A DNA stretch of 64,000 nucleotides, taken from contig NZ_CP064786.1 of assembly GCF_017094485.1 (NCBI RefSeq), positions 372,001 to 436,000 on the forward strand. Direction: 5' to 3'. This DNA comes from Natranaeroarchaeum sulfidigenes (GTDB lineage: Archaea > Halobacteriota > Halobacteria > Halobacteriales > Natronoarchaeaceae). How positions within the stretch are numbered: the stretch's first letter is position 1; each line of letters starts with the position of its first letter. Under the pieces are notes generated by a model. It saw only the letters and a program-made list of their open reading frames with translations, had not been told where the DNA came from and did not search any database. Below are positions 29,317 through 30,325 of the stretch, piece by piece. Position numbers and translations under genes: made by a program.

Positions 29317-29409
29317 TAGCGTTTACTCTTAGCTGATTGAGGCGCTGAGCCCCCTTCCTCAGTGAGTGGTTCGCGGTGTTTGCCCGGAGCGAGTTCAGTG
29401 GACACCGGT

Positions 29410-29523
29410 CATTGGCGAGAGTCAACCGCCTCGGGGTCAAGTGGTTCGAGACGCAGAGCGTCTCGTCATCACGGAAATCAGAGATTTCCGTACGACCCCG
29501 AGGCTTGTCAGTGGACTCCCGTT
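29410..29523 (-). ncRNA. omega-RNA/sotRNA-like right end of the tnpB relic
   Basis: Inverted repeats predict a three-way junction. An outer 11-bp stem pairs 29428-29438 with 29494-29504 (GCCTCGGGGTC with GACCCCGAGGC). Inside are two perfect 8-bp hairpins with three-base loops: 29447-29465 (CGAGACGC-AGA-GCGTCTCG) and 29472-29490 (CGGAAATC-AGA-GATTTCCG). It starts directly after the tnpB stop on the same strand. TnpB guide (omega) RNAs, and the sense-overlapping RNAs reported for IS1341-type genes in Halobacterium, come from this part of such elements. Expression cannot be seen from sequence. Confidence 0.6.
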
Positions 29524-30069
29524 TTAACCGAGTAACTCGGCAGGCGTGTAATCGCCGTTCACGTTCAACGTCCCTGACTTGAGGGCCAGTTGACTGGTGG
29601 CCCATCCACCGCGAGACTTCTGCCCGCGATGGATATACCCGCAATACCGACTCGCAATGTTCTTCGCCGTGGCAAACGCTTCGCGTTTGCTGCCCGTCAG
29701 ACACAGTCTGACGACCGCGTTGTAATCCGCATTCACCTCATACCCACAATCCACGCACTCGAACTGTTTGTCGTCACGATTGTCCTCGTGGGTAAATCCA
29801 CAGTTCGAACACCGTTGACTCGTGTACGCAGGGTTCACCGTATCCACGAACAACGCCGTGGATTCAACCTTGTACTCCACGAGTTCCACGAACTTCGCGT
29901 AGGCCCACTGCTGAAACTTCGAACCAGTAGCGATGTTCTCGCGGATGTGATCGAGGTTCTCGAAAATGATGCCGTCCACATCCGTGGCTTGGGCTTCCGC
30001 GATGAGATCGTTGGCGCGGTTGTGGAGCCAATCCAGCGACCAATCCGAGAAGCGGCTGCCAATGGACTG
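29524..30069 (-). pseudogene. C-terminal fragment of a TnpB (IS1341-type OrfB) gene
   Basis: About 180 residues that match the last 45 percent of TnpB. Present are the RuvC-II region (IIFENLDHIRENI), the zinc ribbon CSNCGF with ECVDCGYE, and RuvC-III (NADYNAV). The N-terminal DNA-binding part and RuvC-I with its first catalytic aspartate are missing, so the product cannot be an active nuclease. An in-frame ATG at 30135 adds 22 residues (through a proline-rich SPPPST) that are not TnpB-like; homology begins near 30069, which marks the breakpoint. Confidence 0.82.
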
Positions 30070-30151
30070 TATCAAAAGTTCATCTGTAGAGGGGGGAGGG
30101 GAGTCAGCCCTTCCAGAGGGTGTGATGAGTTTCATCGAGTGTCGGCTTCCT

Positions 30152-30172
30152 CCCCGACCTCAAGGGTCGGGG
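30152..30172. repeat. Hairpin resembling the end of a second IS element
   Basis: CCCCGACC at 30152-30159 pairs perfectly with GGTCGGGG at 30165-30172 across a five-base loop. On the minus strand it is followed by GAGGAAGCCGACA, a sequence I associate with ends of haloarchaeal IS1341-like elements. It lies on the 5' side of the broken tnpB, so it may be the tail of another copy. Confidence 0.45.
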
Positions 30173-30325
30173 CATCCGCCTCGTGCCGTCTGTGAACAGC
30201 CCGAGTACGGCCCGATTGTTGTGACGTTTCTCGCATCGAGTGCTGTTGGAGAGCGCTGTCGCTCCCACTATGTGCAAAAACAGTGAATCGGAAGGTAAGT
30301 CGAGTCAGCCAGGGTGGCCGTCGCG

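Follow-up and report, generated by a model that had tools for sequence, protein, structure and literature searches.

The analyzed DNA (the window) is a 64,000-nt stretch of the Natranaeroarchaeum sulfidigenes genome. Its minus strand carries a relic that, judged from its sequence, belongs to the haloarchaeal tnpB elements of the IS1341 type (IS200/IS605) and has kept both ends (Table 1). It encodes a homologue of TnpB with a zinc-finger domain and with the RuvC-I half deleted, and it has subterminal hairpins, no terminal inverted repeats, and a fixed left flanking motif. In the intact relatives, the order is TTCAC, AGGCGG..., left hairpin, tnpB, right hairpin, and GGTTGAC, and the window retains all of these from 30196 to 29421; at its left end, TTCAC (30196-30192) is followed by AGACGG.... 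The boundary between TTCAC and AG... is common to the intact elements L035, L046, and L026 (loci used for comparison are given L numbers) and to most of the loci L158-L185. The three intact elements come from other haloarchaeal genera and encode TnpB proteins of about 423 aa, to which the relic is 80%–85% identical over the aligned part. A deletion of about 800 bp (in L046 coordinates) removed the N-terminal half of TnpB together with RuvC-I, while the zinc-finger/RuvC-III region (Pfam PF07282, Cas12f1-like_TNB) was kept, in agreement with an earlier sequence-only reading that described a TnpB relic devoid of RuvC-I. A 15-bp direct repeat at 29395 and 29508 was considered as a target duplication and rejected, since the ends of the element lie elsewhere. 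Outside the element, a palindromic repeat at 29329-29366 (GAGGAAGGGGGCTCAGCGCCTCAATCAGCTAA on the minus strand) resembles a further remnant of an IS605-type end; copies of it occur at C1:1942564 of the same genome and in several relatives.

Table 1. Features of the tnpB relic and its right end in the window
Feature	Position	Strand	Basis or remark
IS1341-type (IS200/IS605 superfamily) element, internally deleted, 771 bp	29421..30191	-	left and right ends alignable to intact relatives of 1.5 kb
TTCAC, left-flanking motif (TAM-like target site)	30192..30196	-	same boundary (TTCAC, then AG...) in relatives
Left-end hairpin CCCCGACC-CTTGA-GGTCGGGG, without module	30152..30172	-	same at the left end of L158-L160, L164, L166, and others
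Relic ORF, 203 aa	29524..30135	-	ORF list, Pfam PF07282, alignment; tnpB-homologous from about 30073 on
Internal-deletion junction	30073..30074	-	left homology stops at 30074, right homology begins at 30073
Module B, second, diverged twin-hairpin module (weaker assignment)	29669..29714	-	R2 18.7 bits at 29718-29666
Three-way junction (host hairpin plus module A)	29428..29504	-	fold, copies, alignment to relatives
5' arm of host right-end hairpin, GCCTCGGGG	29496..29504	-	shared without change by simple right ends
Module A, 54-nt twin-hairpin insert TCGTACGG...CGAACCA	29442..29495	-	absent in L160, L164; model R2 77.8 bits
Loop remainder and 3' arm of host right-end hairpin, CTTGACCCCGAGGC	29428..29441	-	100% identical to L160, L164 across the junction
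GGTTGAC, right-end terminal motif (TEM-like)	29421..29427	-	homology with relatives stops here
Guide position TCTCGCCAATGACCGGTGTC	29401..29420	-	flank beyond the element end

The right end of the element folds into a three-way junction. As had been read from the letters, an 11-bp outer stem and two 8-bp hairpins are formed without a single mismatch on the minus strand of 29504-29428: in P1, GCCTCGGGGTC (29504-29494) pairs with GACCCCGAGGC (29438-29428), P2 (CGGAAATC/GATTTCCG) lies inside 29490-29472, and P3 (CGAGACGC/GCGTCTCG) inside 29465-29447. The RNA fold of 141 nt had an energy of -70.8 kcal/mol versus -43.8 ± 3.9 kcal/mol for shuffled sequences (z = -7.0), and none of the 200 shuffles folded as well. 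No family was matched in an Rfam search of the window, and no match was found in the phage collection searched. Comparison with relatives resolved the junction into an ordinary IS end hairpin and a small repeat within it, a 54-bp twin-hairpin element (hereafter the module) that makes up two of the three arms.

The relatives L160 and L164 represent the empty site. Window positions 29496 and 29441 align to adjacent bases there, and exactly the 54 nt that separate them in the window (29495-29442) have no counterpart, although the termini of the module vary by form (AACCA, AACGA), which leaves its exact length uncertain by a base or two. In the alignment to these two loci, the insertion point falls in the host loop between GGGG and CTTGACCCC, with no target duplication. 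The module itself consists of two hairpins joined by TGATGA. Since the exact empty sites are available, its mode of movement becomes testable.

The state of the right end was assessed in 28 class-a relatives, namely those with a readable right end that were found by TnpB protein, so that this sample was not chosen by the junction. The right end was free of the junction in 27 of them and in most was the simple hairpin GCCTCGGGG-CTTGA-CCCCGAGGC; the junction was present only in L182, which is the same element as L026. Both states occur in a single genome, that of Halovenus aranensis (L179 simple, L182 with the module). In L167 the module sits in the left-end hairpin and the right end is simple. 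Some members of other TnpB groups have the module at the left end, and L052 and L116 have it at both ends. The TnpB tree is poorly resolved, and its six rows with the insert require six changes. After this protein-based sampling, the junction was rejected as a conserved TnpB scaffold. The sequence-only reading, which took the three-way junction for TnpB's own RNA end under selection, thus fails on this point, because 54 of the 77 nt belong to the inserted module. With the junction itself as a query, matches were obtained in 251 of 394 genomes of the order, but this sample is biased to well-paired, module-carrying copies; simple hairpins CGGGGCTTGACCCCG were found in 76 of 147 genomes.

The module is present at many other places. 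A search with the insert alone found it in the loop of another type of right end in the same genome (L140), and the 3' ends of class-b tnpB genes (L022, L087) carry it. Nor is it confined to ends: in L211 it lies inside a Y1 tnpA gene, the two halves of which match PF01797 consecutively (positions 1-44 and 47-81). Interruptions of Y1 tnpA genes were seen at about position 1183 of the minus strand in L211, near the HUH motif (HVH), and at about 3436 of the minus strand in L087. The module model R2 had matches in 23 of 26 haloarchaeal genomes. The numbers of hits were 96 in genome G010 and 100 and 121 in two Haloquadratum genomes, hits on either strand being included in view of the near symmetry of the module; this corresponds to about 50 copies per genome in G010 (L263-L282) and Haloquadratum (L283-L302). 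The N. sulfidigenes genome has about six to seven. Nearly all sampled G010 copies lie inside hairpins of IS-like ends, and for 18 of 43 modules examined from G010 and the two Haloquadratum genomes the flanks pair in a stem of 7 bp or longer, compared with 1.3% of random sites, the copies being related to one another. The length is mostly about 53–60 nt, with longer forms up to about 70 nt in G062. Symmetric forms, TCGTTCG...CGAACGA, were found in L140, L211, and L098, while the window copy is partly symmetric. Longer modules 3' of genes occur in L232, L230, and L234 in a repeated context, CTTTTGCGCTG[module]...GGCAAAAGC, which seems to be a separate palindromic repeat, likewise a host of the module.

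A second candidate, module B, lies in the coding remnant of the window element, within a 48-nt in-frame insertion (16 codons) immediately after the NADYNA of RuvC-III that the intact TnpBs do not have. Like module A, it begins with TCGT and ends with CCAC. The assignment is weaker than that of module A, as positions 29714-29669 are not listed in the genome-wide module search.

Among described repeats, the module most resembles in behavior the SMR-A small mobile repeats (HqIRS42, HqIRS43, HqIRS55) of Haloquadratum walsbyi (PMC3119063). Both are short, non-coding, high-copy, and inserted without target duplication in near-terminal palindromes of IS605-type elements or palindrome-associated PATEs. 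However, SMR-A is about 110 bp long with prominent terminal inverted repeats, whereas the module has 54 nt and imperfect ones, the comparison being one with the SMR-A description only. The module lies in a near-terminal palindrome with no target duplication, as SMR-A does, and differs in length; it works like an SMR-A and was not filed as a member, because SMR-A is reported as about 110 bp. PATEs are IS605-derived and consist of fused ends with no gene (PMC3119063). The 107-bp solo (class-c) copies of the junction fit this description, while the window element keeps half of tnpB and has a separate module in its right-end hairpin. These 107-bp, end-only elements consist of TCTAC, then AGGCGGAGCAGGCCGAGT, the junction, and GGTTCAC; they have no tnpB, encode only the end structure, are PATE-like, and occur at unrelated loci in many genera (L002, L023, L030, L032, L037, L047, and many more). 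REP/REPIN, CGTC-tagged, and Rickettsia palindromic elements (PMC3116915, PMC3733652) are also small, palindromic, partly intragenic mobile repeats, and the module is an inverted pair of hairpins like a REPIN. Those elements were described from bacteria, and neither the GTAG tag nor the RAYT-type Y1 transposase of REP/REPIN was found: the module starts with TCGT, and the N. sulfidigenes genome contains no RAYT or other Y1 transposase (no PF01797 match, hence no Y1 TnpA). The right ends that give rise to wRNA/reRNA and the Halobacterium sotRNAs (PMC12558985, PMC8612924) are similar to the window in their position 3' of tnpB, right-end hairpin, terminal motif, and guide position. In contrast, the native end in the window is a single hairpin that acquired its three-way junction from the insert, and it is known here from sequence alone.

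The preferred reading, to which we assign a probability of about 85%, is that of a composite, in which the module was inserted in the loop of the right-end hairpin of a TnpB element and the deletion in tnpB was a separate and recent event. The host is an element of the haloarchaeal IS1341 type (TnpB-only), or more exactly its right end, where a near-terminal hairpin stands in front of GGTTGAC. Judged by position and by analogy with characterized ends (PMC12558985, PMC8612924), this hairpin would serve the transposase for recognition and would also be the hairpin at the right end of TnpB's guide RNA. In this reading, the 54-bp repeat entered the loop. Being self-complementary, it left the outer stem intact, and the product has the appearance of a flawless three-way junction. 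The module rides along as a passenger whenever the host element is mobilized. Separately, and recently, part of tnpB was deleted.

The relic is in a fresh state. The kept coding part has dN/dS values of 0.08–0.12 against three close intact copies, and the values between those intact copies are 0.07–0.16. In a genome of the same genus, glucoamylase adjoins malK and the element is absent, although the spacer is too diverged to prove the join. The low dN/dS and the lineage-specific insertion bear out the earlier suggestion that the truncation may be recent, and a search for identical intact copies in the same genome, which could have marked the relic as a mere young fragment, returned none. The coding part is as fresh as the RNA part, so the state of the stems calls for no special protection; given that perfect pairing is common in intact members of the family, a recent truncation suffices. 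Moreover, as two arms of the junction are an inserted element of a repeat family, their perfection is not evidence for selection keeping a dead guide RNA. Selection on the RNA is not supported.

In the family as a whole, pairing is maintained. The outer stem and both module hairpins covary beyond shuffles and slid controls, a comparison that the earlier reading had proposed; this shows upkeep in the family rather than in the window copy and does not distinguish the RNA level from the DNA level. Pairing was perfectly Watson-Crick in 24 of 37 TnpB-linked copies and in 15 of 80 unlinked ones, a set in which four diverged copies from the N. sulfidigenes genome had 2 to 19 mismatches. It is possible, if somewhat doubtful, that pairing is kept up at the DNA level, by template-switch correction of quasi-palindromes or by recognition of single-stranded DNA by the transposase, an explanation that is compatible with the composite. 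The structure occurs also at left ends, outside the right-end RNA. Mismatches of the G-U and A-C types on the sense strand of 113 copies are about equally frequent (49 and 59) and thus give no indication that the RNA strand is selected. In the module, 67 cells are changed on both sides, 4 on one side, and 5 are broken, but these are counts of cells, not of independent events, and inherited double changes inflate them.

How the module came to be so widespread is a separate matter. It may insert by itself and target hairpin loops, apparently with no harm to the host hairpin, and the most likely working idea would be a single-strand, hairpin-dependent insertion that leaves no target duplication. 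Self-mobility is inferred, since none of the comparisons showed an independent de novo insertion between otherwise identical strains. Extended to all copies, this leads to a more tentative proposal, to which we give somewhat less than even odds: a haloarchaea-wide family of twin-hairpin repeats of about 54 bp that insert in a hairpin-dependent manner into the end-hairpin loops of IS200/IS605 elements, and sometimes into genes, and travel as passengers of TnpB elements without destroying either these or their guide RNAs, reaching about 50 copies in some genomes. Alternatively, and rather improbably, the module is itself immobile and represents an ancient component of some IS200/IS605 end hairpins, spread by recombination or conversion between near-identical ends with the aid of the 107-bp elements. 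The outer stems are indeed nearly identical across TnpB groups, and the end-only elements are very common. Nearly all class-b elements have the module at the right end, several at both ends, but they were found using the junction as a query; their right-end modules may reflect inheritance, or exchange through recombination of one end with another. On the other hand, modules in tnpA or tnpB coding sequence and in unrelated hairpins are hard to derive from an exchange of GGGG/CCCC ends. What lies at 29504-29428 is, in the reading we prefer, a small and probably mobile repeat in an IS end.

This reading bears on the proposal of Dyall-Smith et al. that SMR-A inactivates IS605-type elements (PMC3119063). 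Elements with an intact tnpB and the module were found in many genomes (27 loci), which calls simple inactivation into question. An enigmatic class of repeats, for which we found descriptions from Haloquadratum only, is also extended to most of the haloarchaeal genera tested.

A guide position past the end of the element, as the sequence-only reading had it, is present, but it starts at 29420 and not directly below 29428, since GGTTGAC (29427-29421) intervenes. The guide search of the N. sulfidigenes genome gave 66 matches with up to three mismatches versus 32 for the reversed control. The suggested second locus for the guide bases exists only as a near match with one mismatch in 16 (17/18) at C1:1981339 (L129), in the intergenic region downstream of topA; it was treated as chance, being preceded by TGTAC and not TTCAC, and no convincing guide target with the TTCAC motif was found in this genome. 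An intact TnpB that could use the RNA in trans had also been envisaged, and the same genome has none with such an end, the nearest intact TnpBs being 48%–49% identical and having different ends. A domesticated or trans-acting guide RNA used by another TnpB, with stems kept by selection, is very improbable. In its favor, the end of the scaffold, the terminal motif, and the guide position are all preserved, expression of haloarchaeal wRNAs is documented (PMC12558985), a PATE of HRTV-DL1 is strongly transcribed (PMC10544981), and the topA site matches most guide bases. Against it, that site lacks the motif, no intact TnpB with this end is encoded, the coding remnant looks no more decayed than the RNA end, and G-U mismatches on the sense strand are not in excess over A-C ones. 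A tempting example of TnpB guide-RNA domestication is thereby removed, and a trap is exposed, namely that a small repeat can enlarge the end structures of haloarchaeal TnpB elements. Two other TnpB elements of this genome (L013, L017) have a short ORF just before tnpB, the product of which resembles a small DNA-binding or antitoxin-like protein.
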